A DNA stretch of 64,000 nt from Dysidea avara. Its lineage: Eukaryota > Porifera > Demospongiae > Dictyoceratida > Dysideidae. The notes beneath the pieces were generated by a model. That model worked only from the letters and a program-made list of their open reading frames with translations, was not told where the DNA came from and searched no databases. The position numbers and the translations under genes were made by a program. Below, piece by piece: positions 1-63,800 of the stretch. Location: contig NC_089272.1 of NCBI RefSeq assembly GCF_963678975.1, positions 9,122,408-9,186,407 on the forward strand. The letters run 5' to 3'. The number at the start of each line of letters is the position of its first letter. Position 1 is the first letter of the stretch.

Positions 1-532
1 TGATGAGGCTTTTCCCCAGTATGGGTTAGCGTATGACGTTTCAGCTTGCTCCTGGTTTGAAATGATTTACTGCAATATTTACAACAGTGTGGTTTTTCTC
101 CAGGTTGAGCTATCAGGTGTAACTTATGATGATTACACCTTGCAAGTGTCTTTCTACAACACAGACATTCATAAGGAGTGCCTCCATTATGAGTTCGTAG
201 GTGCTCCTGTAGATTATCATTTTGCATAAAAGATATACCACAGAATTCACATTGGAATTGTTCACTATCACCAGCTGGCAATAGTATCTGTGATTTTAAA
301 GAATATGTTACTTCATGAGGTCTTGAGAGCGTGGATGTGAGATGGTTATTTTGTTCATGTCTCCTGATATGTTGTTGAAGGTTGATCAGTGTAGTAAACA
401 CTTCTCCACATTTTCCACACTTGAACACTTGTGGATTAGCATCACAACAAGCTTGACTGTACTTCAAGTGAATATCAAAATCACATTTTTTCACAAACTG
501 TGCTTGGCAGTGAACACAAATGTAGTTGGCAT
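1..532 (-). CDS. Gene A zinc-finger exon, partial (cut by left edge)
   Basis: The acceptor TTTTGCAG|AT lies at 533. The frame is open from 532 to base 1 and encodes an atypical first finger with C2HC spacing (CVHCQAQF ... HLKYSQAC), a classical finger FKCGKCGEVFTTLINLQQHI, a linker with DSEQFQCEFC and further fingers up to a TGEKPH linker at the window edge. Two fingers in the middle are degenerate (CLCCRKTLARCNHHKLH). The array clearly continues beyond the window. The N-terminal part is closely similar to gene D at 55,900-56,166. Confidence 0.85.
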
Positions 533-584
533 CTGCAAAATTTACATTTTAATGATATTACAATTAGTATAGCTTAACGATATA

Positions 585-799
585 CAGTAAAGTAGGATCT
601 CGATTCTCACTTATCCTATAGCCCTCGATTATCCAAAGACTGTTCTATTAGAGTATTTTGTCAACAGGTGTATATTCTATTAGAATAGTTGAACGAAGTT
701 GTGTATATAAATGAATGGTATTTATTTATCTGCTTATCTAAACATGCACTCCTATGATTGAACTGGCACACAGGTCCTTGGATAATGGAGGTCCCACTG
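585..799. mobile_element. pogo/Tigger-like MITE
   Basis: The ends CAGTAAAGTAGGATCTCGAT and (reverse complement) CAGTGGGACCTCCATTATCC form imperfect terminal inverted repeats, flanked by TA at 583-584 and 800-801. The 215-bp length, TA target and CAGTnnnACCTC-type ends fit non-autonomous pogo/Tigger elements. It has no coding capacity. It contains one copy of the dispersed CTATTAGAGTAT word near 650. Confidence 0.55.
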
Positions 800-1689
800 T
801 AACATCCTTCTTAACGCAAGCCTGTACTCACATCTGAAAAGTGGTTTCTGAAATTGGTCTGGAGAAAATCAAGTGTCTGCATGTCTATCCATGTAAAAGT
901 TTTAAACAAACAAGTCAGCTACATTTTATGAACAAAACCTAGACTGTATCGAACACTCATATAGGTTAGCTAGTCATTTTCATTGGTGTTACTTAAACAG
1001 GGAATAATGTGGCCAGTCTAATGCAACCCACCCTACAAAGCTCAGCTACTGTCATACATTTTTGTGAATATTCTAACAATTTAGTGGATGCATGACCTTT
1101 GTGACTTGTGAGTAAGACTGGTACCAGTATGTAGCTTAATAATGGCATCTCCAGCCTTGCAAGAGATGGATAATGCTTACTATTAAGGAACTTAATTACA
1201 GAACACTCTGCTACAAACTGCATACAAGGATGTCATTAGGTTCCAGAGGTAACTCAGGCATGCATGATGTCGTCGCTAATAAGGCCACTTTGTTACACAG
1301 ACCACCTCTGTACAAAGACCGATTCTGTAGAAAGACTTCATTACAAACATGTATTTCATGACTTTTATGTGTCACAAAACTTAAGTTTCTTCGATACACT
1401 TCACTTGCATGGTCTGTTGCAAACTAACTGATTTACACCTAATGACTCTTAAGTGACTCAATTATGGTAGAATGATATCACAATGACCTTACTGTAGGGT
1501 CATAAAGTAGGCCATAAATTTTCTGAAGCCTAGATGTTTGATATGAAAATAGTCATAAGGTCAAGTCCTGTCATGACAGGAGTATGCACCTGAGACCTAC
1601 AGTAATTATACTTGTCATACTCATTATTACACATGGTCTTTGTAAAGAGATAGTCATTGTAAAATGTAGTCTTATTGATGATGTAATTA

Positions 1690-1790
1690 AGTATACCCTT
1701 AGCTAACTTTGGGACTTAATTACAATGTGGTCTTTGTAACAAGGTGGTCTTTAAGAGGTGGTCATTGAGCAAGGGTTTTATTGTAGCATA
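1690..1790 (+). repeat. Solo end of a TIR element (same family as 2345-3470)
   Basis: The stretch with ACAATGTGGTCTTTG and TTAAGAGGTGGTCATTGAGC is nearly the same as the right terminus at about 3,380-3,470 and the reverse complement of 2,345-2,400. It looks like a single remaining end of another copy. Confidence 0.5.
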
Positions 1791-1901
1791 CACAGTATGC
1801 TAGATGAATTTCATTTTCCGTTTCCAGCATCCATTTCTACTATTTCCAATTGTCTGCTCATGCTTGCCAGGAGACACACAATAACAAAATGATGCTCTTA
1901 C

Positions 1902-2139
1902 CAATAACATAGTCCACTGGTAGTCCCAATAGTTTGACATACTGCTCACCATACCATACTAATAGTTCTGTGCCTGGTAGAATATCCTTAATGGTGTAGC
2001 AGTAAATATTACCCTGGTATTGGAATGATAATAAATTCTGTTCTTCTTCATTTCCAGCATAATTGATAAATCTCAACCAACTAGCATGATCCTCATTCTT
2101 GGCATCAATGTAGTATGACTCAGAAACATTTTTCTTTAC
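1902..2139 (-). CDS. Gene A exon: second half of PR/SET domain
   Basis: The 238-bp exon runs from CTAG|GTAAAG to ATTG|GTAAGAG, phase 0 to 1. It encodes SYYIDAKNEDHASWLRFINY, then NEEEQNLLSFQYQGNIY and ELLVWYGEQYVKLLGL. In PRDM9 the matching segments form the cofactor and substrate pocket, including the VWYG tyrosine region, which is kept here. Catalytic competence is plausible from these motifs but unproven. The exon ends just after the domain, and the split Gly/Asp codon leads straight into the zinc-finger exon. Confidence 0.85.
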
Positions 2140-2344
2140 CTAGAAATGACAATTATACACAGTAAATTTTATTTGAGTAGAGACCATAGTAGAGAGAAAA
2201 GTAATGAACAAGGGATGATGCCTACACATGTAACCATAACAGTGTAAATTAGGATCTGTATATTTGTTTATCTACTTTTTATTCAAGGCACAATTGGAAA
2301 CACTGGAAACGGAAATGGTCAAATAGTTATATACGTGTATCCCA

Positions 2345-3470
2345 GCGTAAAAACCTCACTTAGTGACCTCCTCTTAAAGACCACATTGTAATTAGATTCT
2401 AAAAGATAGTTAAGGAATACTTGATGATCTAACGTTTTAGACCACTTCATGGTCACCTTTTATAAAGACCACCTCTTTACATGGTAATATTCAAATATGT
2501 ACTTTGTGACTCACAGAAAGGGATCACCAGAGTGGATTATAACGGTCGGCCATCAGACATTTACCAATCAATTAGCTGAACCAGTCAAGGATGGCCAACC
2601 ACTTTCCGCTGAAAAAGATCGATATACTTTAATAGAACAGTCAGTGATTCTAACAGAGCAGTCTAAAAATGTACTTAAAAGGTCTAAAAAAGCAAAAAAA
2701 AAGTTGTCTAGCTTGGAGAATCGAACCTGCACCTTGTTATCTGTACCATTCCACCACATGTTCATACACTGTTTAGGTGCTCTAAAAGGGGTTTAAATGT
2801 ACTGCAGTATATGACCATAATTGATATAGATACATGTCACAAAACATCGTATTGGATAATTTCATATCAAATCATTACAATGTAGATTATTATGTACGTG
2901 GCTTAACAATATGGCTGCTGAAGGAGTTTTGGGTGTCAAAATGCTCGCATCTAAGTTTTGAAAAACCAAAATTTTTCAGGGAGCATGCTCCAGCTTGGCA
3001 TGCTTACATCAGTTACACATGCTGCTAAGCATTGCCATACAATGTCAGATCATGTCAGATCAACTTTAACTTTGATCTGACATGATGTCATAATCCTCTC
3101 TGGGGGTCACCCATATTTTGGTCCACACTTCACTCAAGTCATCACTTAGTTTGTACCAGAATATATCACAGTCTATGTAAGTGAAATGTATCTAGTCACT
3201 ACAACCTACTGATCAATGAAAAAGAAGTCTCATAAGGAGATGATGACCTTTAGAGCCTAGCTGACCTAGCTGTTTTGATAAGTCATGAAATGATTGATGT
3301 TTGAAACTTAGGTATTATTACAATGTGGAAAGGTGGTCCTATAAAAGGTGACCATGAAGTGGTCTTATAAGGTAAGTATGCCATAGCTATCTTTGAGATC
3401 CAATTACGATATGGTCTTTGTACAGAGGTAGTCTTTAAGAGGTGGCCACTAAACAAAGACTTTACTCTAT
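2345..3470. mobile_element. TIR element with about 145-bp inverted ends
   Basis: The left end (2345-2490) holds CCTCACTTAGTGACC, AAAGACCACATTGTAATT, CTTCATGGTCACC and GACCACCTC in order. The same blocks appear as reverse complement, in mirror order, at 3313-3470. No long transposase ORF is present, so it is non-autonomous. It sits in the intron between the two PR exons of gene A. No clear target duplication could be fixed. Confidence 0.5.
2705..2762 (-). repeat. tRNA-like fragment (possible SINE head)
   Basis: On the minus strand a good B-box-like block GGTTCGATTCTCC follows an A-box-like TGGTGGAATGG. The spacing between the boxes is shorter than in a functional tRNA and no cloverleaf can be drawn, so this is a decayed tRNA-derived fragment rather than a tRNA gene. 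Confidence 0.35.
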
Positions 3471-3897
3471 AGGGTACATTTACATGACGATTTGACCATT
3501 TCTGTTTCCCATTTTTAGTTTCTATTTTCACTGTTTCCAATTTCCCTAACCTTACAAATCTGGTCAAGTACCTCTGGCCACACAGTCTGGCCACTAATTA
3601 GTTCAAAAACATCAAACAAAACCAAACACCAGACCAACACAGGAAGTCACAACACAAAGGTAGGTAAATACAGTGGACCCGGGTACCGAGGACCCGTGAG
3701 TATCCATCTCTTCTTGGAATTTTACATACTTCACAATCTCTATACTTGTACTAGGTACCTCTGCAAGTAGTCTTGCATAATCAATCCACTTCTCCCCTGT
3801 CATAGTGTCTCATTTAAATCAGTTAGAAATTATAAGCACCTCTGAAAAAGTGACTGCATTTATAGGCCACCCACCTGCTGCACAACGAGCATACTAG

Positions 3898-4264
3898 TAG
3901 TGATGTGTGATACGCCTGAAATGGTGTATCTGTATCTAATAGCTGTGTAGTCACGATACGATATCGATATGTGATACAGTACATCCTTTGTACAAAAAAG
4001 CCAAGTTTAATTAAGTGCGTGGGTGGCTGAAAATTATTTTATTGTTTAGTACCAGCCATTACACCATTGCAATATTATATAACAAGCTTAAGGAGTCTAG
4101 GAAACAGGTAAAAACCCCAGCTACACTCTTAACTTGAAGAAAGCCAGACCTTCATATTTCCGTGATTGTGCAATCAAAATATTGATACGTGTACGTGTGT
4201 ATCGGTGCGATACAGCTGGAGTATCGCAATATTCCGATATATCAATAAGTATCGCACATCACTA
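3898..4264. mobile_element. hAT-like MITE with 8-bp target duplication
   Basis: Terminal inverted repeats TAGTGATGTGTGATACG and its mirror GTATCGCACATCACTA bound 367 bp, flanked by perfect 8-bp direct repeats CATACTAG (3890-3897 and 4265-4272). Length, lack of ORF and target size fit a non-autonomous hAT element. Inside, GATAC/GTATC words recur. Confidence 0.85.
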
Positions 4265-5580
4265 CATACTAGTCTATTACGTCAACTTGCTACTAAAATT
4301 TAGAGACATTGTGCAAATACACCACGATGTAATGTGCCTGGTTGTGCTGGACTGAAACTTGCTTAGCTTGCCAATTGCTATTTCCCCCTGAACATTTTTT
4401 TACACAATGTTTCTAAAACTTAGTAGTGAGTCGAAATAATAGATTAGTATGCTCAAACTACAGCAGGTGAGTGGCCTATAAATGCAGTCAGTTTCAGATA
4501 CATTTTTTCAGGGGAGCTTATATTTTCTAATGGGTTTAACATCATGTGAGACACCATGACAGGAAAAGAAGTGGATTAGACATGCAAGACTACTTGCAGA
4601 AGTACCTAGTACAAGAGTAGAAGATTGTGAAGGGTATAAATTCCAAGAAGAGTCAGGTTCCCCTGGATCCTTGGTCCCCAGGTCCACTGTTTTTACATAC
4701 CCACAATACAAAGCTAATACATCAAGGACTGACAAGGAGGTAAATCACCCCGGAACGAATAAACACACAACACTGCACTCGTCTGAATAAAGAGAAGCAG
4801 TAAAACTGTTGGGTTGAGTCAGTATATCTGTATACCACATGCTCGTTCGCCAATAAATTAAGCTAACCAAGGCTATTATAGCGCTGCACCACTCAACAAT
4901 GAATATCCAACACTTCACCTGCACTCGTCTAAATGATGCTAAGCAATACAATTGTTGGAGTGATTGGCATAAATGATGGCAACTCACGCTTGTGCATGGC
5001 AAACGTGCTACCAATGAACAAACTAGCTAACAATGAATTAACCATCAAGACAGTAATTAGTCAGTAAAATCATTTCTTTGCACACAACGCTCAGTGGTAG
5101 CCAATATATTAACCTTGCTTTCTTGTTCCTTCCATGTTACAAATGGACGCCTTTGATCTGTGCACTCCCCACGTCACAAATCAGTTATACCACATCCATA
5201 TGGTTTGTCTCTGATTTGTGCCCATAGGTGTCATGTTTACAAATCCGATACAAACCTCATGGGTGTGTTACAACTATTACCTGTACACAATACAAATTAT
5301 ACATGTATTACCAGCTAATGTGCACACTGTAATTTATTCTCTGTAACAGAAATAAACATCAAATTTAGTGAAGTATTTGAAACTGGTCTCAGATTCAGCC
5401 TCACTGTGTTCCATTTTAAAAATGTCTGGGGAAATGCCCCCCAGACCCCTAGAAGCTTGTGCTTTACACTGCCATGCAATTTCACAATGGCCCATCAAAT
5501 GTACTTTTGATCGGCCATCTTGTACTACTGTAACAATAAATTTGCATTGTACTGTTCACTGTGCACAATAGAAAAATTAC

Positions 5581-5861
5581 CTCAAAGAAGTAACTTGTAT
5601 CAGTTTCATCAGTTACATCTTCTTTCTGTACCACTTCTCCCTTGTAGGGACCAATCCTAGTCCTTCTGGGTATTAACTCTTTGGCAAACACTCCCTTGCC
5701 AGCATTCATAATGGAGGACATCTTCACTGTAACTTGTAGTGGTACTGGTACACTGGTAAAGGATTTTGAGTCTTGGTCCCACCCCCGGGATTCATCCAAT
5801 GGTGTTAGAGGACCATGTACTGGACAGTCACCATGGTATGATTTATCACAAGTAACACAAA
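5581..5861 (-). CDS. Gene A exon: zinc knuckle and first half of PR/SET domain
   Basis: This 281-bp exon (phase 1 to 0) begins after CCAG and ends at TTTGAG|GTAATT. It encodes a C-x2-C-x7-C-x2-H zinc knuckle (CVTCDKSYHGDCPVH), then the start of the PR/SET domain with GKGVFAKELIPRRTRIGPYK and the segment up to DTSYFFE. The GPYxG element and the knuckle just upstream are hallmarks of the PRDM7/PRDM9 (and PRDM11) subgroup. The homologous exons of genes C and D are exactly the same length. Confidence 0.85.
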
Positions 5862-7128: not shown

Positions 7129-7236
7129 AGATTACATCGTCAATACTAGTGTCATTGCTACTCCCAGAAGTAGCATAATTCAATGTCTCCATCCTTGTCA
7201 TATTTTGTTTCAGTGGAGCGACCACTACACTGCCGT
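7129..7236 (-). CDS. Gene A linker exon before the zinc knuckle
   Basis: Acceptor TTTGCAG|ACGG and donor ATCT|GTAAG bound a 108-bp exon, phase 1 to 1. It encodes an acidic, Ser/Thr-rich linker ending NDTSIDDVI; the split codon with the next exon gives Phe, then the knuckle begins FCVTC. The last residues resemble the acidic stretch before the PRDM9 knuckle. Equivalent exons lie at 39124-39222 (gene C) and 59510-59590 (gene D). Confidence 0.65.
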
Positions 7237-7288
7237 CTGCAAATAAACAAGTACACTTACTAACTTCATAAACAAGATAAATAACATA

Positions 7289-13600: not shown

Positions 13601-13837
13601 ATCATTAACAATGGTTTTCTCTCTTGTATCAACCTGTACTACCCCTCCCACCACGTCAAATATCTTCACTTCCCACTTGACTTTCCATACACCAGACTGT
13701 TGCGAGGTCTGCTGTCCATATATATGTTGATACATGTGCTTGGTACTATGAGGAAAATGTGTGGATTCAATCAAAATTTGACTCACTGTATGTCTCACAA
13801 TGGATAATTGTGATTGTTGAGCTGTTGTAGTACTCCA
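13601..13837 (-). CDS. Internal exon of unidentified gene E
   Basis: The acceptor CTATTTCAG|TGGAG opens a frame reading HTVSQILIESTHFPHSTKHM, then QQSGVWKVKWEVKIFDVV and DTREKTIVND. A phase-0 donor GAT|GTAAAC at 13601 or a later ACGTG|GTATGT at 13581 could end it. The intron to the last exon would be about 100-125 bp. No signal peptide or membrane segment is seen in this part. Upstream exons were not found before the repeats at 14 kb. Confidence 0.45.
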
Positions 13838-13962
13838 CTGAAATAGGACAACATAAAGATGATGACATCAAAACCTAAGCAGTCTAGTGGCAGAAACAGT
13901 GATGGTGTGATCTGTAATTGTCATATTAGTCTATACAGACTACACTGTATCTGTACATGTAC

Positions 13963-14813: not shown

Positions 14814-14816
<3 letters not shown>

Positions 14817-14879
<63 letters not shown>
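14817..14879. repeat. (TG)n microsatellite
   Basis: About 60 bases of uninterrupted TG dinucleotides, decaying into TGCG/TGTG variants to about 14,905. Any ORF across it is an artefact. Confidence 0.98.
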
Positions 14880-14882
<3 letters not shown>

Positions 14883-19657: not shown

Positions 19658-20751
19658 TCAATGTTGACAATGATATGGTCTCTTCTCTGTATGTGTCTGC
19701 AAATGTATAAGTAGGCTACCAGATGTTGTAAATGCTTTACTACAATATTGACAGTGGAAGGGTTTCTCTCCTGTATGAGTTCTCAAATGTATCTGTAGGC
19801 TACTACATTGTGTAAACACTTTACTACAATACTGACATTGGTATGGCTTCTCTCCTGTATGAATTCTTAAATGTGTATGTAGATTACTAGATGTTGCAAA
19901 TGCTTTACAACAATATTGACACTGGAAGGGTTTCTCTCCTGTATGAGTCCTTAAATGATTCCGTAGGTCACCAAGCTGTGCAAATGCTTTACAACAATAT
20001 TGACATCGGTATGGCTTCTCCCCTGTATGAGTTCTTAAATGCATTTGTAGACTACTAGACATTGTAAATGCTTTACTACAGTATTGACAGTGGAAAGGCT
20101 TATCTCCTGTATGGGTTCTTAAATGTTTTTGTAGGTCACCATGCTGTGCAAATCTTTTACTACAATATTGACATGGGCATGGTTTCTCTCCTGTATGGGT
20201 TCTAATGTGTGTTTGTAGATTACCAGGCTGTCTAAAAGCCTTACCGCAATATTGACATTTGTATGGCTTCTCTCCTGTATGAGTTCTTAAATGCACACGT
20301 AGACTACTAGACGTTGCAAATGCTTTACAACAATATTGACATTGGTATGGCTTTTCTCCTGTATGGGTCCTTATATGTGCTTTTAGGTTATAAGATTTTG
20401 CAAATGCCTTCCTACAATATTGACACCGGTGTGGCTTCTCTCCTGTATGAGTTCTTACATGTCTTTGTGGATCACTGGGTTTTGTAAGTGCTGCACTACA
20501 ATATTCACATTGGCAGGGCTTCATCTCATTAGATTGTTTGGTAAGCGCCTTTGCTGTATTGCTCAGAACCACACACTTTCCCTCATGTTTCCTGATATGA
20601 TGCTGAAGGTTGATCAGTGTAGTAAATGCTTCGCCACATTTTCCACACTTGAACACTTCTGGATCACATTCACAACATGATGGACTATGCTTCAAATCAA
20701 TATCTTCACTCAGAAACTCTGTTTGACAGTGAGTACAATTGTGCCTAGGAG
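19658..20751 (-). CDS. Gene B zinc-finger exon (ten canonical C2H2 fingers)
   Basis: The acceptor CCACTTAG|CT opens the phase-1 frame APRHNCTHCQTEF, an atypical C2HC finger, followed by FKCGKCGEAFTTLINLQHHI. A C2H2 array with TGEKPY/TGEKPF linkers follows: one degenerate finger (SAALTKPSDPQRH), then about nine 28-residue units on a nearly constant backbone (CQYCxKAF...L..HLRTH). Units differ mainly at the DNA-contact helix positions (for example SYNLKAH, PGNLQTH, HGDLQKH). The stop TGA at 19658 falls where a Cys is expected (HCQH then stop), so the last finger is cut; relic finger sequence goes on to about 19,550. At the DNA level the array is an 84-bp tandem repeat. Confidence 0.93.
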
Positions 20752-23405: not shown

Positions 23406-23531
23406 AGAGATTTTTCCACATATGTAGGCACTTATGTTGTAATGACTGATCTACTGTTTCATTACCTTCTATCACTTGGATCCCTTCTTTATTTAATATA
23501 ATATTAGAGTATATAATATGTACGTAGTCAC

Positions 23532-23608
23532 CTTCATCTGGTATAACTGGTTCCTCATGATGAGTAGTTCTCTTCTTAGCTAATCTCTTCGATCTCCTAC
23601 ACTTTATC
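23532..23608 (-). CDS. Gene B exon 3 (basic linker)
   Basis: From acceptor TTGGATTAG|G to donor GATGAAG|GTGACT (77 bp, phase 2 to 1), it encodes IKCRRSKRLAKKRTTHHEEP followed by VIPDE. The dense basic cluster suits a nuclear localisation signal or an SSXRD-like basic region; the acidic end matches the position just before the knuckle in genes A, C and D. The open frame continues past the donor (DYVHIIYSN), so the end point is inferred from phase. Confidence 0.45.
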
Positions 23609-32844: not shown

Positions 32845-33778
32845 TTGTATGGGTTCTTAAATGACGTTATAAATGGCTAGACTGAACGAATGCTTTACTA
32901 CAATAATGAAATTGATAGGGTTTCTCTCCTGAATGGATTTTTAGATGACGTTGCAGACTGTATGATAGTGCAAACGATTTACTATAGTGCTCACAATGGT
33001 AGGGCTTCTCTCCAGAATGAATTCTTAAATGACAACGTAAACTGCTTGCCCGAGTAAATACTTTTTTACAATATTGACATTGATGGGATTTCTCCTCTGT
33101 GTGGGATCTTTAATGATGATGTAGACTGCTTGACTCTGTAAATGTTTTATTACAGTGTTCACAATGGTAAGGTTTTTCTCCTGTATGAATTCTTATATGA
33201 CGGCAGAGACTACGTGAATTTGAAAAGGTTTTATTACAGTGTTCACAGTGGTAAGGCTTTTCTCCTGTATGAATTCTTATATGAGAACGCAGACTGGTTG
33301 AATTTGTAAATGCCTTACTACAGTGTTCACAATAGTAGGGTTTCTCCCCAGTATGAGTTCTCACATGACGGTGTAGGTTACTTATTGAAGTAAACGCTTT
33401 ACTGCAATATTCACACTGGTGTGGCTTCTCTCTTGTATGAGTTCGTAAATGACCAGGCAAGTTTTTTTGGGAGAGAAAAGACTTACTACAGTACTGACAC
33501 TGGTAGTGCTTCTCTGCAGTATGGCTACGTAAGTGATCATTTAGCTTTGAGTTGGTTGTGAATGTTTCACTACAATAAGAGCATTGGTAGAGCACTTATC
33601 CTGAATGACTCTGTAAATGATATTGCATTTCATCAGATTTTGTAAGTACCTTACCAAAACATTTACAATGGTGAGTGTGGATTAGCATTACGACAAGCTT
33701 GACTGTACTTCAAGTGAAGATCAAAATTGTACTTTGCCACAAATTGTGATTGGCAGCAAGCACAAGCGTAGTTGGCAT
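32845..33778 (-). pseudogene. Gene C zinc-finger exon, disrupted
   Basis: After the acceptor GCTGTAG|AT the frame reads DANYACACCQSQFVAKYNF but stops at 33663-33665. A second frame resumes at HCKCFGKVLTKSDEMQYH and stops (TAA 33596-33598) just before VLYQCSYCSETF. From 33595 to 33110 five full fingers are open (for example YYCEHCSKAFTNSTSLRSH), then a TAA replaces Leu in SSLHHH. Three more fingers follow with lost zinc ligands (CEHYSKSF, YQFHYC) and another stop at about 32,870. The segment corresponding to FKCGKC...LINLQQH of the paralogues is deleted. The array is therefore dead in this haplotype unless there are sequence errors. Confidence 0.85.
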
Positions 33779-37693: not shown

Positions 37694-37928
37694 CAAAAAT
37701 GTGTTCCACTGGTAGTCCCAATAGTTTGACATACTGCTCACCATACCATACTAATAGTTCTGTGCCTGGTAGAATATCCTTAATGGTGTAGCAGTAAATA
37801 TTACCCTGGTATTGGAATGATAATAAATTCTGTTCTTCTTCATTTCTAGCACAATTGATAAATCTCAACCAACTAGCATGTTCCTCATTCTTGGCATCAA
37901 TGTAGTAAAATTCTCTACCTTTCTTAAC
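37694..37928 (-). CDS. Gene C exon: second half of PR/SET domain
   Basis: From TTTAG|GTTAAG to TTTTTG|GTAAAT, 235 bp, phase 0 to 1. It encodes VKKGREFYYIDAKNEEHASW, LRFINCARNEEEQNLLSFQY and ELLVWYGEQYVKLLGL. The INCAR-EEQN block is even closer to the vertebrate PRDM9 form (NCARDDEEQN) than the copies in A and D. The frame is intact despite the broken finger exon downstream. Confidence 0.88.
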
Positions 37929-37982
37929 CTAAACAAAAAGAGTAATATGTTCTACTGACACTAAAACTATAATAGTATGTAC

Positions 37983-38263
37983 CTCCCAGAAGTAACTTGT
38001 ATCAGTTTCATTAGTTACATCTTCTTTCTGTACCACTTCTCCCTTGTAGGGACCAATCCTAGTCCTTCTGGGTATAAACTCTTTGGCAAACACTCCCTTG
38101 CCAGCATTCATAATGGAGGACATCTTCACTGTAACTTGTAGTGGTACTGGTACACTGGTAAAGGATTTTGAGTCTTGGTCCCACCCCCGGAATTCATCCA
38201 ATGGTATTAGAGGACCATGTACTGGACAGTCACCATGATATGATTTATCACAATCATCACAAA
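37983..38263 (-). CDS. Gene C exon: zinc knuckle and first half of PR/SET domain
   Basis: A 281-bp exon, phase 1 to 0, from CTCCAG|TTTG to GGGAG|GTACAT. The knuckle is CDDCDKSYHGDCPVH, followed by GPLIPLDEFRGWDQDSKSF, AGKGVFAKEFIPRRTRIGPY and TNETDTSYFWE. The only differences from gene D are scattered substitutions, and no stop or indel is present, so this half has stayed under constraint or diverged recently. Confidence 0.88.
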
Positions 38264-39123: not shown

Positions 39124-39222
39124 AGATAACACCATCAATATTTTCATCACCAGTGTTCCCAGAATGACGAGTTTTCAGTGTGGTAGGAATATCTTTTAAT
39201 GGAGTCAATCTTATACGGAAGT
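39124..39222 (-). CDS. Gene C linker exon before the zinc knuckle
   Basis: 99 bp, phase 1 to 1, from ATTGCAG|ACTTCC to TATCT|GTAAGTG. It encodes FRIRLTPLKDIPTTLKTRHS and an acidic end GDENIDGVI leading to the knuckle. Highly similar to 59510-59590 in gene D. Confidence 0.75.
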
Positions 39223-42564: not shown

Positions 42565-42987
42565 GCTACAATAAATTATTTCATAACAACTACATAATAA
42601 CTATAGCTACATACAAATCTGTCAAAGCTTCAAAGGTTGTATCTGAACCTTAAAGTTGGTATTAATTTATCTATGTGGTTTCATTGCATCAATATGATGA
42701 CCAGCATGATGCTGAGGTAAAAGGAAAAGCAAGGCACAGAAAGCAGACACTCATCGGAACCCCAACAGGCACATTCCAGAAATGAGTTAAGTATTGTGGT
42801 ATATAAATTAATGGCCATAATTTATGGTCCATTGCTTAGCCTCTAGTCTTGTGGTTGTGGCAGGAAGGCAGGCAAACCAAATTTAGGGCATTGATATTTA
42901 TATATTTGTTCTTCTAAAAGAGTTTTCTTGTTCTAAATAGCAGATTTAAAGATTAAAAAGAAATATATGATTTAGACATATTCTTAC

Positions 42988-43074
42988 CTTTTATCTTTAT
43001 ACATTTAGGAATTTGCTTGGTGCCGTTATCAATCCTCTTCTGCTTCTCCACTGGAGAGTACTCCACATCAATAT
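42988..43074 (-). CDS. Gene C exon 2 (basic linker)
   Basis: 87 bp, phase 1 to 1, from TTAGCAG|ATATTG to AAAAG|GTAAGAA. It encodes DIDVEYSPVEKQKRIDNGTK then QIPKCIKIK. The same length and motif (DID..SPV.K.KRID) occur in gene D at 61901-61987, so it is a genuine homologous exon. The KQKRI cluster suggests a nuclear signal. Confidence 0.75.
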
Positions 43075-43169
43075 CTGCTAATGTACAAAAAGGAAATGCT
43101 CAAATAGAACATACAGTAACAACCAGAAACCTCAATAAATATGTCTCTGGTCTCATCATACAGTACAGC

Positions 43170-54754: not shown

Positions 54755-56166
54755 CTACTTGGCATGGGTTTTTAAATGAGTTTGCAAATGAGTTGCCCGG
54801 ATGAACCCTTTACTACAATGTTGACATTGATGGGGTTTCTCCCCTGAATGAGTCATTAAGTGACGACGTAGAGTAGTTGAATCAGTAAATGTCTTATTAC
54901 AGTGTTCACATTTATATGGCTTTTCTCCTGTATGAATTCTTAAATGACGCTGCAGATTAAATGATTCGAGAAAAGATTTACTGCAATGTTCACAATGGAA
55001 GCGTTTCTCTCCGGTGTGGGTTCTTAAATGCTTGTTTAGCTTTGAGTTGCTTGCAAATTTTTTGTTGCAGTGACTGCACTGATAAAGCTTTCCTCCTGAG
55101 TGAGTTTGTAAATGACAATGTAGGTCATAAGGTCTTGTGAATACCTCACTGCACTGTGTACACTGGTGCTCTCTTGTATGAGTGGGCAAATGACGTTGTA
55201 AGCTGAAGTTATCCCTAAATGATTTTGTACAATGTTGACACTGATGTCCGGTATGAACTAACATATGGCGCTTCAATTTGCTTTCTTCATAAAATGACTT
55301 ATTGCAATCATGGCACTTATAAGACTTTCCCTCTTTGTGTGTTTTTAAATGACGGTATAGACTACTAGAATATGAAAATGATTTACTGCAAAGATGACAC
55401 TGATGAGGACTATCTTCTGTGTGAGTCCTTAAATGATGCTGTAAACTGTCCGAGTCTGCAAATGATTCACTGCAATGTTGACATTGACGAGATTTCTCTC
55501 TTGTGTGAACCCACAAGTGACGTTGTAGATATCGTGAGTCGGCAAATTGTTTGCTACAATGATGACATTGGTAAGGCTTCTCTTCACTATGAGTACTTAA
55601 ATGCTGGCGTAGAGTACTTGAATCCGCAAATGATTTGGTGCAATGTTGGCATTGGTGTGGCTTCTCTCCTGTATGAATTAAAAGGTGACGTTTCATGTTA
55701 AATTTTGTCTTAAATGATTTACTACAATACTGACACTGGTGGGGTCTTTCTTCAGTAGGAGCTTCTACGTCTGACTCCAGACTACTTTGCTCAACACTTT
55801 CTTCATTGAAATATTCATCTTGACTTTCATAGTGAATTTCTACATGGCTTTGTAGGTCTTCATTTTGTGTAAAACACTCACCGCAAAACTCACATTGAAA
55901 GTGTTCACTATCACCAGCTGGCAATGACTTTAAAGAATAGATAACTTCACGAGATCTTGAGGATGAGGATGTGGGATGGTTATTTTGGTCATGTCTCCTG
56001 ATATGTTGTTGAAGGTTGATCAGTGTAGTAAACACTTCTCTACATTTTCCACACTTGAACACTTGTGGATTAGCATCACAACAAGCTTGACTGTACTTCA
56101 AGTGAAGATCAAATTTACTTTTGTCCACAAATTTTACTTTGCAGTGAGAGCAAGTGTAGTTGGCAT
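54755..56166 (-). CDS. Gene D zinc-finger exon (about 15 fingers)
   Basis: The acceptor GTTGCAG|AT opens DANYTCSHCKVKF, a C2HC finger (C-x2-C-x12-H-x6-C). Then come FKCGKCREVFTTLINLQQHI, a Ser-rich linker, FQCEFCGECFTQNEDLQSHV, an acidic linker (ESVEQSSLESDVEAPTEE) and twelve fingers in tandem with TGEKPH-like linkers, ending GFIRATHLQTHLKTHAK. Contact-helix residues differ between fingers (SSTLRQH, SRYLQRH, SDSLQHH, PYDLHCH, FNLQRH and others). Some linkers are shortened (TGHQCQH, TREHQCT). The open frame continues upstream of the acceptor only through intron. Confidence 0.95.
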
Positions 56167-57140: not shown

Positions 57141-57775
57141 CCTATAGTAAAAAGCTTTGGTGGTAAAAAAGTGTGACGAAACCCCTCTGTTGAAAAAATT
57201 GGCGGAAAAAACTTTGGCGATTGAAATAATATTCGCCAAAGTTTTTACCGCCGTAGTTTTTACTGTAGCTACGGTACGTAAGGATAACAACAAGGTGTTA
57301 ACTCGTCAGTTAAGTAGTGTACTAAGTGTATAGGTAGCTAGCGTTGTTTTTGTAGCAGTACTTTTGTAGCTACTGATCTAACAATGTCACGCTAGCAAAG
57401 CCGTGCTTCGCTATCTCCTGCAATACTGAGGGACCGTATTTATTTTTTCAGTAGCAGAGATTAGCACATATATCAAAGTATTTGGCCAATCCGTCGCAAG
57501 ATGATTAACTAGCTGATGTGTGAATGGGAAGCCTCGGGGAAGCCGGTTGTAAATGCTATCCAAAGGAGTGCTTACAAGTGTGGGACACGCTTTGAAGATC
57601 TCCAAAGTCAGATCGATCTTTATTGTGTGGTGGTATGAGCTGACCTTCATCTCAAGTTATAGTTACTCACTATGCTTGTATGATCATCTAAAATAATTGG
57701 TGAAAAAAACTCTGGCGAATTAAACACTATTCGCCAGATTCGAGTTTTATACCGCCAAAGTTTTTTACTATACGG
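57141..57775. mobile_element. CCGTATAG-ended TIR element, copy 2
   Basis: Ends CCTATAGTAAAAAGCTTTGG and the mirror ending TTTTTTACTATACGG bound 635 bp with TA flanks. The interior aligns along its length with 7289-7946 (AAAGTGTGACGAAACCCC; ATTCGCCAAAGTTTTTACTG; GTGTGGGACAC...). It sits in the intron between PR and finger exons of gene D. Confidence 0.75.
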
Positions 57776-58010
57776 TATATCCTGGTCTAAAACAACAGTC
57801 TCTCCTTCAAACACATGCTATTACAGATACAAGCCGTGGCTGTTATTTGAGGGTGGCTGTTATTTGAGGGTGGCTCTTATGACAAGGTTCAATTGTGGCT
57901 ATATATACTATGCTGGGGTCATTATTAAGCAAGCTACAGCTTTTACCTGGTGTACAGTAAAAGTACATATATCTGATGCATATATGTTGTCACTCATAGC
58001 AGTAAGTTAC

Positions 58011-58248
58011 CGATAATTTGATCCACTGGTAGTCCCAATAGTTTGACATACTGCTCACCATACCATACTAATAGTTCTGTGCCTGGTTTAATATCATCAA
58101 TGGCATGGCAGTAAATATTACCCTGGTATTGGAATGATAATAAATTCTGTTCTTCTACACTTCTAGCATAATTGATAAATCTCAACCAATTAGCATGTTT
58201 CTCATTCTTGGCATCAATGTAGTAAGACTCAGAACCATTTTTCCTTAT
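58011..58248 (-). CDS. Gene D exon: second half of PR/SET domain
   Basis: From TCTCTAG|ATAAGG to ATCG|GTAACT, 238 bp, phase 0 to 1. It encodes IRKNGSESYYIDAKNEKHAN, WLRFINYARSVEEQNLLSFQ and ELLVWYGEQYVKLLGLPVDQ. The VWYG segment and the EEQN loop are kept. RSVEEQ differs from RNEEEQ in gene C. Confidence 0.9.
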
Positions 58249-58300
58249 CTAGAGAACAATGAATTATTATTTACAATAACACAGTCAACCATATACCAAC

Positions 58301-58581
58301 CTCCCAGAAGTAACTTGTATCAGTTTCATCAGTTACATCTTCTTTCTGTACCACTTCTCCCTTGTAGGGACCAATTCTAGTCCTTCTGGGTATAAACTCT
58401 TTGGCAAACACTCCCTTTCCAACATTCATAATGGAGGACATCTTCACTGTAACCTGTAGTGGTACTGGTACACTGGTAAAGGATTTAGAGTCTTGGTCCC
58501 ACCCCCGGGATTCATCCAATGGTATTAGAGGACCATGTACTGGACAGTCACCATGGTATGGCTTACCACAATTGATACAAA
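58301..58581 (-). CDS. Gene D exon: zinc knuckle and first half of PR/SET domain
   Basis: 281 bp, phase 1 to 0, from TTGTAG|TTTG to GGGAG|GTTGGT. The knuckle is CINCGKPYHGDCPVH; then come GPLIPLDESRGWDQDSKSF, VGKGVFAKEFIPRRTRIGPY and DETDTSYFWE. The knuckle lines up with the CxxC...C..H motif before the PR domain in vertebrate PRDM9. Confidence 0.9.
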
Positions 58582-58639
58582 CTACAAACAGCAAAACAGC
58601 GTTAGTGGATCTCCATGCTACCAACAATGCATAAACAAA

Positions 58640-59505
58640 ATGTACATTATATAGAGATGGGACGATACATCAAGTATATTGCCATATCAGAAATACAAGT
58701 ATCAATAAATGATTTGACTATATATATCATGTATCGCAATGTACATATTGGGTGAATCAACATGAATATTATTACCGTAGCTGTTTTTGTTTATAAATAA
58801 ATTTTTTTTGGAATTGTTGAAATGCAGATGTCAATTTACAATGACCAAATTATTGAGTTAACATTGTCACAGAGTTAGAAAACAAAAGATATTCTGTTTC
58901 TGTTTTAGAAAACACACTGCTTTGTATATAGCAATTCTATCGTTGTATTACGGTATTTTCAGGACAATGTATTAAAAAGTACTTTCAATCTTGATATTTC
59001 TGGTACATTATTATACGTATATGTACCCGTTGCACTATTGAGTGTTTGATTATAAAGAAAAATGGTTGTTTTTGGCACACAAACTTTCTGCATTCTAAAG
59101 ATGGAGGTTAATGGTATCAGTTTGTGACAATTACAACCTGCATGCTAGCTACATCACAGGCAGTTTAGACATTTCAGATTCAAGATTTCCTTAAATATAG
59201 ATCACTAAGTAACAAATCTATTCTGCATGGCTAATAGGCTATGTGTATAAATTATGTATTTCAAGATGTATGTCCAGGTTTAGAGAATAGTGGTGGCTAC
59301 AAAATGCCACAAAATGGAAGTAAGGAGTGTGCATGTACTGGCTATATCTCAAAGAAATGTATTTTCTGGTGGTTATCACACATGAACACCGCATGTGGTT
59401 ACATCACAACCTCACATGACACATGGTATATAAGGGAGGGATAGCGTGCATTGATTCAATATATGTCAACCTCTTGGTGATTGGATTTCCATACACAATC
59501 TCCAC
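58640..59505. other. Intron of gene D, no exon seen
   Basis: A GGGACGATACATC ... ATGTATCGCAATGTAC stretch at 58,655-58,745 resembles worn hAT-like MITE ends. No exon-like segment was found. Confidence 0.45.
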
Positions 59506-59509
59506 TTAC

Positions 59510-59590
59510 AGATCACATTGTCATCACCAGTGCTCTCAGAATGATGAGTGGTAGGAATATCTTGTAATGGAGTCAATCTTACACTGAAGT
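59510..59590 (-). CDS. Gene D linker exon before the zinc knuckle
   Basis: 81 bp, phase 1 to 1, from ATTACAG|ACTTCA to GATCT|GTAAGTG. It encodes FSVRLTPLQDIPTTHHSEST and the acidic GDDNVI, which joins FCINC of the knuckle. Closely similar to gene C 39124-39222 but six residues shorter. Confidence 0.78.
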
Positions 59591-59998
59591 CTGTAATAGA
59601 CATGTGTACATACTGAACAATTCATTGTCACCATAGACTAATGGTATGTACAGTAGTATATAGTATAGTCACTATCCACTAGGGATCTGCAAGAAGGCTA
59701 CTTTGTAGCAGGGAGTCACAACCATGTTACTAAAACTCAGAAAAAAATCCCAGACAAGCGTCTGAGTAGCCACACAGCCTGGGATCCTGGATTTCCTCTG
59801 CATTCAATGTACAATTACTTTAAAACTGGCACAATCTACATTAACTACAAGTGTCAAAAGTTTACAGTTGATCATACAATAGCAATCCACTAGCTAGTAT
59901 AGCTGCAGGAATAAATGACCTGCATTGCTTTTTTATTTCTATGATCCCTACTCACAAACATACTTTCTTACACTTGTTTGCTTAGTATACAAGTACGC

Positions 59999-60236
59999 AA
60001 AAATTTCCAACTAGAGTATACGGACCATAGCACATTGATAAAGGTACTGAAACAAGCTGGAGTAGTGCATCATAGTAAAACAATAAGAAGCGTTATATCC
60101 CTACTGTGCTCAATATACCATAATGGAAATGCACAGTAGGAATATAACACTTCTTATTGTTTTACTATCATGCACTACTCCAGCTTGTTTCAGTACTTTT
60201 TATTGATGTGCTATGATCCCTACTCTAGTTGAAAAT
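59999..60236. repeat. Foldback at the head of an R1 copy
   Basis: CAACTAGAGTATACGGACCA, AGTACTGAAACAAGCTGGAG-like and AACAATAAGAAG blocks are mirrored by CTTCTTATTGTT, CTGGAGTAGTGC-type and GTGCTATGATCCCTACTCTA. The arms are about 100 bp, nearly perfect. Confidence 0.85.
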
Positions 60237-61350
60237 TCCAATTATTTTGTGTACTTGTTTGCTAATTTTTTTATAAACAATTTTTATGACTGGTGAACCC
60301 ACGCATACCACATCAAAAGAAAACAACGGCACCGTGCGTCCCAGCTATATCAATTATCGTCTGAAAAGTGAAGTATCCATTGTCAGTGTTGGGGGTAACG
60401 TGTTACTTATGTAACGCGTTACATAATAGTTATTACTTTTGTGGTAACAAAGTAATATAAAAAAACAGGCTATAAAACAGGAAATATAACTCAAGTTACT
60501 TTACTTACAAATGTAACGTGTTACCTAAGTAATGAAGTTACTGTAACGAGTAGAATATTACATAATATTATTACTACACGTAACAAAGTTACTAATCTTG
60601 TTAGCAATCCACTAAGTAATGCCTAGCCACAACGAAGTAACGAAGCCTACTGAATGAAGCATAGTCACCAGCTTCTTACTTATAACCAAGATTTGCACAT
60701 TGTCCAACAACACAATCATGTCACGTGGTGATAAGGTGATAGTTTCATATGTGACAGCTTAAGGCTGTGGAAACAAAGTATTATGATATTTAATATTATT
60801 ATAGTTACTTTATTTTATGGATAATATGTATCTGTAACTAAATAGTTCAGTTGAAAGTAATACTCTATGTAACGAGTTACTTTTAAAAAGTAATTGCCCC
60901 AACACTGTTCATTGTCAACTATGTACAACCCGTTGCACAGCATTACGAATCAAGAACTGTTTGAAAAGCACCTCTGCAATCAAAGTAGCCACTAACAGAC
61001 GATCTCCATTACGAAGGGAAGCCATCATGTACTACCACCAAATCGACACTTTTTGTTGTCAGCAAAGACGAATGGGACACAAAGGAGGATACTGGTAAAT
61101 CCATGAATGCATTGTACATACTGCAGTATGCCAAAAGCCACCTCTCGGGCCAAAGCAACGTCAAACAGTGAAAAAATCAAGTCCGTAGCCTTAGCCGTTA
61201 TCAAGAAACTTGTTGCAAGCATTTTGGGTCGATCTGAAGGCTTGTTTGGACTTAGTTTTACCTAACCAATACTGCCTCATCATCATCTGGGGAAAAAAAA
61301 GTGAGGCTGGTTTTTGGTGATTTTTCATGGCACGCCTTTGTGGTCCCTAC
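60237..61350 (+). repeat. R1 tail, interrupted by a hAT-like element
   Basis: ATGACTGGTGAACC, GCATACCACATCAAAAG, CCGTTGCACAGCATTACGAA, CCTCTGCAATCAA, TTGTTGTCAGCAAAGACG and TACCTAACCAATACTGCC follow the R1 order. The hAT-like element at 60384-60907 splits the repeat, so R1 is older than that insertion. Confidence 0.65.
60384..60907. mobile_element. hAT-like element with GTAAC-rich ends, 8-bp duplication
   Basis: Ends CAGTGTTGGGGGTAACGTGT and (mirror) CAGTGTTGGGGCAATTACTT bound 524 bp. TCCATTGT (60376-60383) and TTCATTGT (60908-60915) are an 8-bp duplication with one mismatch. TAACGNGTTAC words recur inside. It is inserted in an R1 copy. Non-coding. Confidence 0.88.
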
Positions 61351-61389
61351 TATACAGTACTATCGTACTGTATGATACAGTATTTTATG

Positions 61390-61720
61390 TCAACCAACAT
61401 GTACCACATCAAAGGAAAGAATGGTACTGGCCAGACATTATATTAAAATCAATTGAGCAAGTCAATGCATGCCCTTACTATACAATACTGGAAAGTGCAT
61501 GATGTTGCCATTCTGCTTTGTTTTCAGCTTTGTTCCACCTAAACACAGCATTACAAATGAAGAGCAGTATGAGAAGTGTCTCTGTATTCAAAGCAATCAC
61601 AGAAATCGGAAAACATGTGGCCTGACTATCAATTATACAGAGAAGTGAAGTGGCCATTTCACTTCATTTTCAAGTATGTTTACAAACAAAGAACAGTATG
61701 AGAAGTGCCTCTGCACTCAA
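61390..61720 (+). repeat. Partial R1 copies in tandem
   Basis: CATGTACCACATCAAAGGAA, CACAGCATTACAAATGAAGA and, at 61,680, ACAAACAAAGAACAGTATGA then CCTCTGCACTCAATCCAG repeat R1 words twice at short distance, suggesting local duplication. Confidence 0.5.
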
Positions 61721-61900
61721 TCCAGCCACATCATTACACATGTTATCCATACAATTTACTTACTATACAATAAACCAGCGAATAGCAAATCGGCATGCTT
61801 AGAATTTGAGTTAATGTATACTGGGACAGACAGCACAGCTGATGTGGCTGAACTATCAGTCAGGAATAACGTTCAGTAAATCAGTACTAGAAGTCCTCAC

Positions 61901-61987
61901 CTTTCTTCTTAACACCTTCAGGAGTCTTCTCCATGTCATTGTCAATTCTTTTCTGCTTCTTATTCACTGGAGAACACTCATCAATAT
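61901..61987 (-). CDS. Gene D exon 2 (basic linker)
   Basis: 87 bp, phase 1 to 1, from GTGGCAG|ATATTG to AAAG|GTGAGG. It encodes DIDECSPVNKKQKRIDNDME then KTPEGVKKK. The two Lys-rich clusters look like a bipartite nuclear signal. Same length as gene C exon 2. Confidence 0.8.
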
Positions 61988-62104
61988 CTGCCACTAAAGA
62001 ACTATTCTAATAAAACACACAGCAACAACCAACACAAAATACTAAAATATAACTAGTATGAAAGTGAACACTTCGATAATTCAGTATTCAGTCCATTTGT
62101 ATAC

Positions 62105-62835
62105 GAAGAATTTAAGTTCAATCAGGGATCAAAGAAATAAAGTATAGTGAAACAAGGGAGGTCGATATACCTGAAGATATACTAGTGAACATTGTAATTC
62201 CTAATTCAGTCATGGGTCCACTAGTACTGTATATCTTTGTTTCACTACTTTTATCTTTTGATCCCAATCTAATTTAAAATTCCTAATTTTTCCTTTTACT
62301 ATGAAAATCCACACATAACACATTAAAAGAAATAATGGTTCCTGGCTTATTGCTTTTTTCTGAATGCGCATTCCAACTATTGATTACTGAAACAGTAAAG
62401 TGACCAATATGTATTGTTTCAGCCTGTTACACAGCATTATAAATGAAGACCATTGTGAGAAGGGCCTCTGCAATCAATTTAGTTGCAACAGAAAATTCGG
62501 ACGGCTCCTGCTGCAAATGTAGGGAAGCCAACACTTGGCACTACTATGAACCAACACCTGCGCTGTCAGCAAAGATAAATGGAAGATACTGGTAAGTCCA
62601 CAAAGCATGCACAGCCCAAAAGGCACCTACCTGTTGGGCTGTCAACACTGAAAAATTAAGCCTGTAGCCTTAGCCATTATCAAGTTAAGCCTGTCAGAAG
62701 GCATCAGTCAGTTGGTCAGGCAGTCAGTAGAAAATTCCACTGGATACTTTCTTTTAAATTTTGTAGCAACCTATCAGGTTGGTACTTTGGGCTTCTAACC
62801 AATACTGTCAAGGCACCATAAAGCTGGTTTCTTGT

Positions 62836-62850
<15 letters not shown>
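62105..62850 (+). repeat. R1 copy with foldback head
   Basis: The foldback head (62,105-62,285: GGGATCAAAGAAAT, AGTGAAACAAGGGAGGTCG, GATATACTAGTG with mirrors) is followed by the R1 tail: CAGCCTGTTACACAGCATTA, CCTCTGCAATCAATTTAGTT, TGTCAGCAAAGATAAATG, GTCAGTAGAAAATTCCACT and TAACCAATACTGTCAAGGC. Confidence 0.65.

Positions 62851-62870
<20 letters not shown>
62838..62870. repeat. (TA)n microsatellite
   Basis: About 16 TA units. The Tyr/Ile-repeat ORFs across it are artefacts. Confidence 0.95.
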
Positions 62871-62873
<3 letters not shown>

Positions 62874-62884
62874 CACTCTGCGTG

Positions 62885-63100
62885 GGCAGTTCAAAGGCAC
62901 CGCCAGTGCCATAATTTGTATATTGCACTGCTGCAGACCGCAGCGAGTGCATTATAACTTATAACGCACTGGTTGTGGTTTTGTAGACCACAACGAGTGC
63001 ATTATAAGGTATAATGCACCGACCGCAGTGCAATATACAGATATTGCACTGGCTGCGGTTTTGTGCAGCATAGCACAAGTGCCGGTGGCGAAGACCACTA
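62885..63100. repeat. Foldback/palindromic repeat with GAGTGCATTATAA units
   Basis: CACCGCCAGTGCC and TGTATATTGCACTG are mirrored by CAGTGCAATATACA and AGTGCCGGTGGCG. In the middle GAGTGCATTATAA occurs twice and is itself near-palindromic with TTATAACGCAC. It lies just downstream of gene D exon 1, in intron 1. Confidence 0.65.
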
Positions 63101-63109
63101 CGACACCTC

Positions 63110-63800
63110 ACCTAATAGGTGGAAAGACACTTCACAGATCACTCGAATTCTTTTATAGCCTGACATGAAAAGGTCGATTGTGGGCCATAATGTCACCAAT
63201 ACGTATAATGTTTACAAGCAGCCAATGGCGATCGAAAAAGCCAACGCGGGTGGCCACAACTCTAGTCTACATATATATAAACGTACTTATACACCTTACT
63301 AGTCTGGTGCCATCTTAGCCCAGATTAAACTGTAGTCCACTTCGACAATGACTCAATAAAACAAATATATTCTAAAAAATACTAACCTTTACGTTCGATT
63401 GTGGTAACCAGTTTTGTCATGCCACTAGATTCGAGTTTAGCCAGTGTGAATAGTAAGAATTATACTAGTATCGTTTAGTAGTTAGGTTTCGTTTACTTAA
63501 ACCGTCTATTTAGCAGCTTTTTTTCGCTCGAGAGAATCACTATGGCGATTAGTCTGGTGCTTAGTCTATATGGGACGCTGAGCACTACATGATGAGAGTC
63601 GAACAGCGAATGCAGGTTAGTGATATAACCCATAGCGTACTAGCTTTCAATATCTCAGGTGGCTGCAGTACTGCAAGGGGAACGTCATTGCAACGTCCGG
63701 CTTGGTTACCCACAATCGATGTTAGAAACCTGGCCTTTATAAGTGTTACAGCTGTCTTGTGAGACTCTCCCCACCTATTAGGTGAGTGGTACATAACAGT
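63110..63800. promoter_or_regulatory. CpG-richer region around gene D start
   Basis: CpG is denser than average, especially 63,160-63,260 and 63,500-63,720. A CTCACCTAATAGGTGG block at about 63,108 recurs inverted at about 63,772, bracketing the region. A promoter is inferred from composition and position relative to the start codon at 63420. Confidence 0.35.
63387..63420 (-). CDS. Gene D exon 1 (start codon)
   Basis: ATG at 63420 reads MTKLVTTIERK and ends at donor AAAG|GTTAGT in phase 1; the split codon with exon 2 gives Asp. Very short, like the first exons of A and C. It lies in a CpG-richer stretch. Confidence 0.55.

Follow-up and report, generated by a model that had tools for sequence, protein, structure and literature searches.

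PRDM9 sets the sites of recombination in mammals. The KRAB zinc-finger genes of tetrapods join a conserved 5' exon by splicing to an exon of fingers, and their presumed ancestor is a PRDM9-type gene. PRDM9 is already known from invertebrates, and duplicates of it are known from vertebrates. Nematostella and Lottia have each been described with one predicted Prdm9, and Capitella with three that could be alleles or paralogues; the fingers show concerted evolution and, in Nematostella, positive selection at the contact positions (Oliver et al. 2009, PMC2779102). PRDM9 duplicates occur in ruminants (PMC5351255) and in salmonids, where the copies number 6 to 14 and are often incomplete (PMC11703093). 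Here we analyze a window of 64,000 nt from the sponge Dysidea avara (NC_089272.1, hereafter C1; C1:9122408-9186407), together with whole-genome searches covering 550.8 Mb in 108 contigs. On balance, we consider the window to be part of a larger expansion, specific to this lineage, in which copies of a PRDM9-type gene have split into three classes.

The members of this family share a common layout, with an upstream exon, an exon at the SSXRD position, a zinc knuckle and PR/SET domain divided over two exons, and a terminal C2H2 exon. Class 1 consists of four dispersed copies on C1 (2.98, 4.31, 4.38 and 5.02 Mb) that keep Tyr276, Tyr341 and Tyr357 and have homogenised arrays; its proteins would recognise changing DNA motifs with their fingers and methylate histones there, in the way that PRDM9 marks recombination hotspots. 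Class 2 holds the approximately 30 PR copies with a cysteine at the Tyr341 position, mostly in a 1.6-Mb cluster and including window genes A, B and D. Class 3 holds the array genes that lack a PR domain, namely 17 of the 52 arrays counted by their conserved leader, nine of them with an SSXRD-like exon upstream and window gene C among them. Proteins of classes 2 and 3 may bind DNA sequence-specifically through old, strongly diverged arrays, would have weak or no methyltransferase activity, and could serve as regulators or repressors, possibly of transposons.

The window contains four C2H2 arrays, all on the minus strand, and three units of knuckle plus PR domain (A, 58011-58581; B, 37694-38263; D, 1902-5861), just as a sequence-only reading of the same DNA had claimed in describing four same-strand paralogues, three of them with this architecture. 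The features, in window coordinates, are as follows.

61893..61994, minus strand: gene A, upstream candidate exon (ADIDECSPVNKKQKRIDND..); matches gene B 42980-43081 and, weakly, C1:9225404-9225454
59510..59590, minus strand: gene A, degenerate exon 5' of the knuckle at the SSXRD position (...GDDNVI/F-C); from paralogue conservation, splice sites and phase
58301..58581, minus strand: gene A, zinc knuckle and N-terminal PR half; from Pfam, tblastn and phases
58011..58248, minus strand: gene A, C-terminal PR half with Cys at the PRDM9 Tyr341 position; preceded by a 52-nt intron
54755..56166, minus strand: gene A, terminal exon with 14 regular C2H2 fingers, including the conserved leader finger, and stop
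42980..43081, minus strand: gene B, upstream candidate exon; matches the gene A exon
39124..39222, minus strand: gene B, exon 5' of the knuckle exon
37983..38263, minus strand: gene B, zinc knuckle and N-terminal PR half
37694..37928, minus strand: gene B, C-terminal PR half with Cys at the Tyr341 position; preceded by a 54-nt intron
33017..33764, minus strand: gene B, broken array, its pieces separated by stops; a damaged leader (33675-33764) precedes 6 regular fingers
23521..23604, minus strand: gene C, SSXRD-like exon (KCRRSKRLAKKRTTHHEEPVIPDEGDYV) that lacks a clean splice donor
19658..20751, minus strand: gene C, terminal exon with 11 regular C2H2 fingers and a phase-1 acceptor, without PR
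7129..7236, minus strand: gene D, exon 5' of the knuckle exon
5581..5861, minus strand: gene D, zinc knuckle and N-terminal PR half
1902..2139, minus strand: gene D, C-terminal PR half with Cys at the Tyr341 position; preceded by a 3.4-kb intron
1..532, minus strand: gene D, first part of the terminal exon, whose array has 21 regular fingers in total; continues to C1:9120760
13832..13912, plus strand: remnant with stops, similar to the exon that precedes the knuckle, on the opposite strand to the genes

The first PR exons of A, B and D match Pfam with E-values of 4e-10 to 1e-8, and all three genes have a knuckle of the form C-x2-C-x7-C-x2-H together with GPYKG, EEQN and ELLVWYG. The motifs first reported thus stand, except that NxxEEQN is really N-x5-EEQN. 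A CCCH knuckle is present in 32 of 38 first PR exons genome-wide, these three among them; with the Pfam knuckle model (PF18445), D scores above the cut-off and A and B, as single exons, below it. Regular fingers, by which we mean those with H-x3-H spacing, otherwise-spaced fingers being excluded from the counts, number 14 in A, 11 in C and 21 in D, so that the description of long arrays holds for these genes and fails for B, which is short and broken.

Gene A, with its upstream candidate exon, spans 54755-61994, and its four exons join in phase to give a predicted protein of 669 aa. Four exons of gene D give a stop-free 934 aa, both models being partial at the 5' end, and the D array extends 1.65 kb past the left window edge to genome position 9120760. 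The PR exons of gene B are intact, whereas its array is broken by a damaged leader and in-frame stops. Near the array of gene C, tblastn found no match to a PR domain. Local gain and loss, as had been anticipated, is therefore visible in B's array and C's missing PR. The PR-internal intron differs in length, but A, B and D have the same phases (1 into the knuckle and first PR exon, 0 between the two PR exons and 1 out of the second) and the finger-exon acceptors of A, C and D are all phase 1, in line with the shared exon structure recognised earlier. The exons are conserved between paralogues, while the flanking intron sequence is mostly not alignable. The PR and finger exons very probably belong together, judging from their spacing of 86-102 bases in the four intact-tyrosine copies and the matching phases in A, D and the C1:2.98 copy.

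Beyond the window, the Pfam PR model gave 67 exon-level matches genome-wide, which group into 40 loci, a few of them fragments. Thirty lie on C1 between 8.37 and 9.96 Mb; C1 has another four outside this interval, C4 has five and C12 has one. The 30 loci form the 1.6-Mb cluster around the window and are of mixed orientation, with 9 on the plus and 21 on the minus strand. A query with the conserved leader of the finger exon identified 52 places, 37 of them within the cluster; both this count and that of the PR loci are lower bounds. At 35 of the 40 PR loci, a leader follows on the same strand within 20 kb, without a second PR domain intervening. The array of the C12 copy has another leader, and four further PR loci have none within 20 kb. 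The 250 kb around the window hold 12 arrays and 8 PR domains (one partial). In a tree of PR domains, gene B clusters with four other copies besides those at 9.02 and 9.66 Mb, and the pairing of A with D is weak (91/73). That the four genes form a self-contained tandem is rejected on the size and mixed orientation of the cluster and on the grouping in the tree.

A cluster of this kind could also arise by ordinary turnover of C2H2 genes, the PR domain being a passive leftover and most of the cluster decaying, functionless duplicates. The copies at 9.896, 9.234, 8.467 and 9.937 Mb do contain stops or are fragments, B's array is broken and four PR loci besides C12 lack a nearby leader. We nevertheless judge this account improbable, as the PR exons are under constraint (mean pN/pS 0.45 for 38 first and 0.38 for 37 second exons, damaged copies included), their phases are intact, the open arrays are long, reaching 740 codons, and the window itself contains two intact models, A and D.

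The PR domains of the window family are PRDM9-like, an assignment supported by the best PDB match of the least derived copies and by the position in the tree. For the C1:2.98 copy, PRDM9 scores 137.8 bits, followed by PRDM12 (115), PRDM14 (103.4), PRDM1 (101.8), PRDM11 (91.3), PRDM4 (69.8) and PRDM10 (65); for the C12 copy, PRDM9 and PRDM12 score 123.3 and 99 bits. One first-exon query put PRDM12 slightly above PRDM9 (30.7 and 29.8 bits). The tree has 40 rows, consisting of six references and 34 of the 40 genome copies; it omits the loci at 9.024, 9.234, 9.896, 9.937 and 8.467 Mb and C4 42.557, and PRDM4, 5, 6, 10 and 15 are not in it. All 34 genome copies fall together (92/76), with C12 branching first, then a clade of the C1 copies from 2.98 to 5.02 (89/86) and then the rest. 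Their neighbours are PRDM9 and PRDM11, and a branch with support of 88/75 separates them from PRDM1, PRDM12 and PRDM14. The proposed affinity to PRDM9 is therefore upheld by the tree and by the least derived copies, but not by gene A, which does not distinguish PRDM9 from PRDM12. That tie, the naming of the Pfam knuckle model for PRDM4 and the proximity of PRDM11 to PRDM9 in the tree would suit domains of another class, among the knuckle-bearing PRDM4, 6, 10, 11 and 15, that came to resemble PRDM9 by convergence. We find this very unlikely given that the less derived copies place PRDM9 clearly ahead of PRDM11, PRDM4 and PRDM10 and that their DDDYxxC junction aligns with PRDM9.

The positions of the catalytic tyrosines on the PDB sequence were counted from Tyr357, which we take to be the tyrosine of VWYG; the alignment of gene A with PRDM9 is gap-free in this region. 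Tyr276, Tyr341 and Tyr357 are the residues named as catalytic in salmonid PRDM9 (PMC11703093). Of 37 readable second PR exons, 30 have Cys at the Tyr341 position, 6 keep Tyr and 1 has Phe, while Tyr357 is retained in 36. Tyr276 is retained in all 35 readable cases among 38 first PR exons. These counts exclude L002, L014, L026 and L027, which duplicate the window or other loci, and any PR piece whose alignment covered fewer than 56 residues, namely 9.024, the second exons of 9.937 and 8.467 and small first-exon pieces of 9.896, 9.234 and 8.467. Window genes A, B and D all keep Tyr276 and Tyr357 and have Cys for Tyr341. The six copies with Tyr341 are C1 2.98, 4.31, 4.385, 5.02 and 8.366 and C12; all but 8.366, which is without Tyr357, keep the three tyrosines. 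The C12 gene (C12:11814033-11816683) is PRDM9-like and the sole PR match on its contig. No CCCH knuckle was seen in its first PR exon, and it has an acidic linker and about eight diverged fingers.

The same four C1 copies stand apart in their arrays. Finger DNA identity is 81-90% within them versus 52-76% in 12 other arrays (Mann-Whitney p 0.001, related arrays not being independent). With contact positions defined as -1, 2, 3 and 6, the four arrays pooled have a contact pN of 3.30 times the overall pS, compared with 0.72 for other variable positions, and the contact set ranks 3 of 1365 possible sets of four. In the 2.98 array alone, the contact ratio is 3.18 (interval 1.63-14.4) versus 0.41 elsewhere. 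A wider survey took in the 14 arrays in which four or more fingers are regular, and for most of these it left out the one or two fingers at the start. Here, the window arrays have contact ratios of 0.79 (A), 0.85 (B), 1.21 (C) and 1.02 (D), with no interval wholly above 1, and the 9.105 array reaches 1.33 (1.05-1.75). A ratio of 2.79 for gene D came from finger pairs at least 65% alike only and falls to 1.02 over 19 fingers. General positive selection across the window arrays was likewise rejected, since finger-by-finger comparison put the ratio of A at 0.82 against the 9.213 array and at 0.92 against 9.219, both with wide intervals. No window array is as homogenised as those of the four intact copies. 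From the homogenised fingers and the contact ratios, turnover of the PRDM9 type appears to take place in the intact copies and is not seen in the window genes.

These data also bear on whether all classes might be meiotic PRDM9s, forming a polygenic hotspot system in which dozens of arrays share the placement of recombination. Retention of Tyr276 and Tyr357 almost everywhere and the constraint on the PR exons would agree with such a system, as would a contact set ranking 8 of 1365 when arrays are pooled more widely, in a pool that has two intact-tyrosine arrays. Its likelihood is low in our estimation, because Tyr341 is replaced by Cys in most copies, arrays other than the four intact ones lack homogenised fingers (0.52-0.76) and the exon at the SSXRD position is degenerate. 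A search for KRAB (PF01352) gave no match in the whole genome; it was also silent in 14 control genomes, so its sensitivity is unproven. Finally, partial vertebrate PRDM9s have been reported without evidence of rapid finger evolution, as far as the available text goes (PMC6116924).

The exon at the SSXRD position separates the classes further. In the 2.98 copy, the exon before the knuckle reads YGKRRKSKRLAKKGTTHYEEPVISDDDDYI and has a phase-1 donor leading to FCDDC. We take its upstream part to resemble the SSXRD motif. Adding this predicted exon raises the PRDM9 score to 151.9 bits from the 137.8 obtained without it, and the alignment to mouse PRDM9 then extends over isDDDDYIFCDDC / MSqDDDYLYCEKC. 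The SSXRD-like exon has 15 matches in the genome, 12 of which are followed by an array leader within 20 kb on the same strand; these belong to three intact-tyrosine copies and nine PR-less arrays, among which are gene C and four arrays on C6. The remaining three matches, at C1:7779890-7779970, 7827409-7827489 and 4426509-4426571, lack a leader in the 20 kb that follow. An exon lying further 5' in the 2.98 copy has only three matches, at the 2.98, 4.385 and 5.02 copies. In copies with Cys341, the exon at this position is degenerate and ends in DDxxI-F-C or a comparable sequence; it was recognised in 9 of 11 such copies with at least 1 kb of upstream DNA examined (A, B, D, 9.009, 9.020, 9.029, 9.234, 9.896 and C4 47.57). 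One such exon also occurs upstream of the PR-less arrays at 9.213 and 9.219.

The PR exons form a phase-1/phase-1 cassette, whose loss or skipping keeps the reading frame, and we infer that the PR-less genes arose by loss of this cassette. Mere local decay of a PR domain was rejected for gene C, as it has the same SSXRD-like exon as other PR-less arrays, though with an unclean donor. The four PR-less genes on C6 (C6:35482627-35578697) have SSXRD-like exons and open frames of 423-583 codons over the leader. An array such as C's could instead be an alternative last exon of a neighbouring PR gene, with B's PR domain, for example, spliced to C's fingers. The donor after B's PR and the acceptor of C are both phase 1, B's own array is broken, and C has no PR and no clean donor on its SSXRD-like exon. 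However, each of the nine PR-less arrays has its own SSXRD-like exon upstream on the same strand and four of them lie on C6, for which no PR match was listed, so that we hold out little prospect for this arrangement.

Several observations weigh against the view that the window is a slice of an expanded PRDM9-type family with a hotspot-like class. Knuckle plus PR of gene A matches PRDM9 and PRDM12 equally in PDB, at 100.4 bits each. The tree support of 88/75 is modest with several PRDM families absent, and the tree program warns of long branches, PRDM11 among them. All exon joins are predictions. The Pfam SSXRD model (PF09514) does not match the SSXRD-like exon; no match to that exon was found at the 4.31 copy, where a remnant is possible, and the degenerate exon was not seen in approximately 1.4 kb upstream of the Cys341 copies at 9.717 and 9.662. 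The 4.31 copy also has a short deletion right after VWY. Among the intact arrays, the contact intervals of 5.02 (1.53, 0.57-3.02) and 4.31 (1.25, 0.83-3.20) include 1, and in 4.385 a contact ratio of 20.4 (7.8-21.3; pS 0.02) is accompanied by 3.67 at other positions, which exceeds 1 owing to a near absence of synonymous change. In the 9.955 array the pattern is reversed (0.34), and A compared with 9.213 reaches a contact ratio of only 0.82. No ZCWPW-like gene combining CW and PWWP domains was found in the genome, since the one zf-CW match (C13) and the four PWWP matches lie on different contigs, and this weakens the case for a PRDM9-style recombination pathway. In vertebrates, ZCWPW1/2 are more often absent where the catalytic tyrosines of PRDM9 are changed, an absence entangled with loss of KRAB and SSXRD (PMC8892340).

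With Cys at the Tyr341 position in A, B and D and no KRAB found, a recombination role, as had been suggested for these genes, is doubtful in the window and more plausible for the four copies elsewhere on the same chromosome. We read the intact copies as the best candidates for a hotspot-type function and the cluster as encoding DNA-binding proteins with another job. The window cluster is probably a PRDM9-derived DNA-binding family that has lost hotspot setting, and control of transposons by its genes is plausible by analogy with KRAB zinc-finger genes and the FiNZ zinc-finger genes of fish (PMC10547256).

Compared with known systems, the family resembles mouse and human PRDM9 in its knuckle, PR/SET domain and single terminal C2H2 exon, in the three catalytic tyrosines of the four least derived C1 copies and C12, in the SSXRD-like exon of three of those four copies (that of the 2.98 copy joining the knuckle through DDDYxxC) and in the intact copies' homogenised fingers, which vary at contact residues when pooled. 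It differs in its many copies, in having no KRAB and no CW plus PWWP partner that we could find, and in the Cys341 and diverged arrays of the window copies. Those copies share features with fish PRDM9-beta and other partial PRDM9 paralogues, which in the available accounts have a complete SET domain with changed catalytic tyrosines, no KRAB, no recognised SSXRD and no evidence of rapid finger turnover (PMC11703093, PMC6116924). The sequence-only reading had contrasted the locus with one or two such genes in vertebrates, a comparison that is loose in view of the salmonid copy numbers; yet 40 PR loci, 30 of them in one cluster, and PR-less sister genes go beyond what the available salmonid account describes (PMC11703093). 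Concerted finger evolution would be shared with the Prdm9 of Nematostella, Lottia and Capitella, as would positive selection at contact positions with that of Nematostella; the dozens of copies are not (PMC2779102). Tetrapod KRAB and cyprinid FiNZ genes likewise form large sets of arrays with PR-less members beside a PRDM9-type relative. Unlike in KRAB genes, no KRAB was matched here, within the limits of that search, and the shared exon upstream of nine PR-less arrays is SSXRD-like. In the titles and abstract beginnings found by searching one open-access library, neither a family of some 40 PR loci accompanied by PR-less sister genes nor anything on PRDM9 in Porifera appears.

Rfam gave no matches on the window and Pfam none on four further open reading frames in it. 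A long (GT)n run at 14532-14951 reads as an open frame of VCVCVC. The translations LFADNARCQF, LFVTLCNRLN and DCSIRV recur between the genes (22794-23115, 60918-62626 and elsewhere) and look by eye like an interspersed family of mobile elements. The cluster also encloses a nuclear copy of mitochondrial cox1 (C1:8896847-8898038), one of 21 cox1 matches on nine contigs. Translated with TGA as Trp, one locus of nuclear mitochondrial DNA contains what look by eye like cox1, nad1 and cob in succession, and ARAGORN detected no tRNA in four such loci; both would suit a non-bilaterian, perhaps a demosponge.

More tentatively, the PRDM9 of an early-branching animal may have independently repeated the presumed origin of vertebrate KRAB zinc-finger genes, leaving a few intact hotspot-type copies with fast-changing arrays and dozens of descendants in which the PR domain was blunted (Tyr341 to Cys) or lost. 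Intact, altered and PR-less forms stand side by side in this one genome, and three of the four least derived C1 copies combine the catalytic tyrosines, an SSXRD-like exon and homogenised arrays. Because these forms co-occur, two questions would be testable in one animal: whether PRDM9-type control of hotspots predates vertebrates, and how a recombination gene gives rise to a large zinc-finger family.

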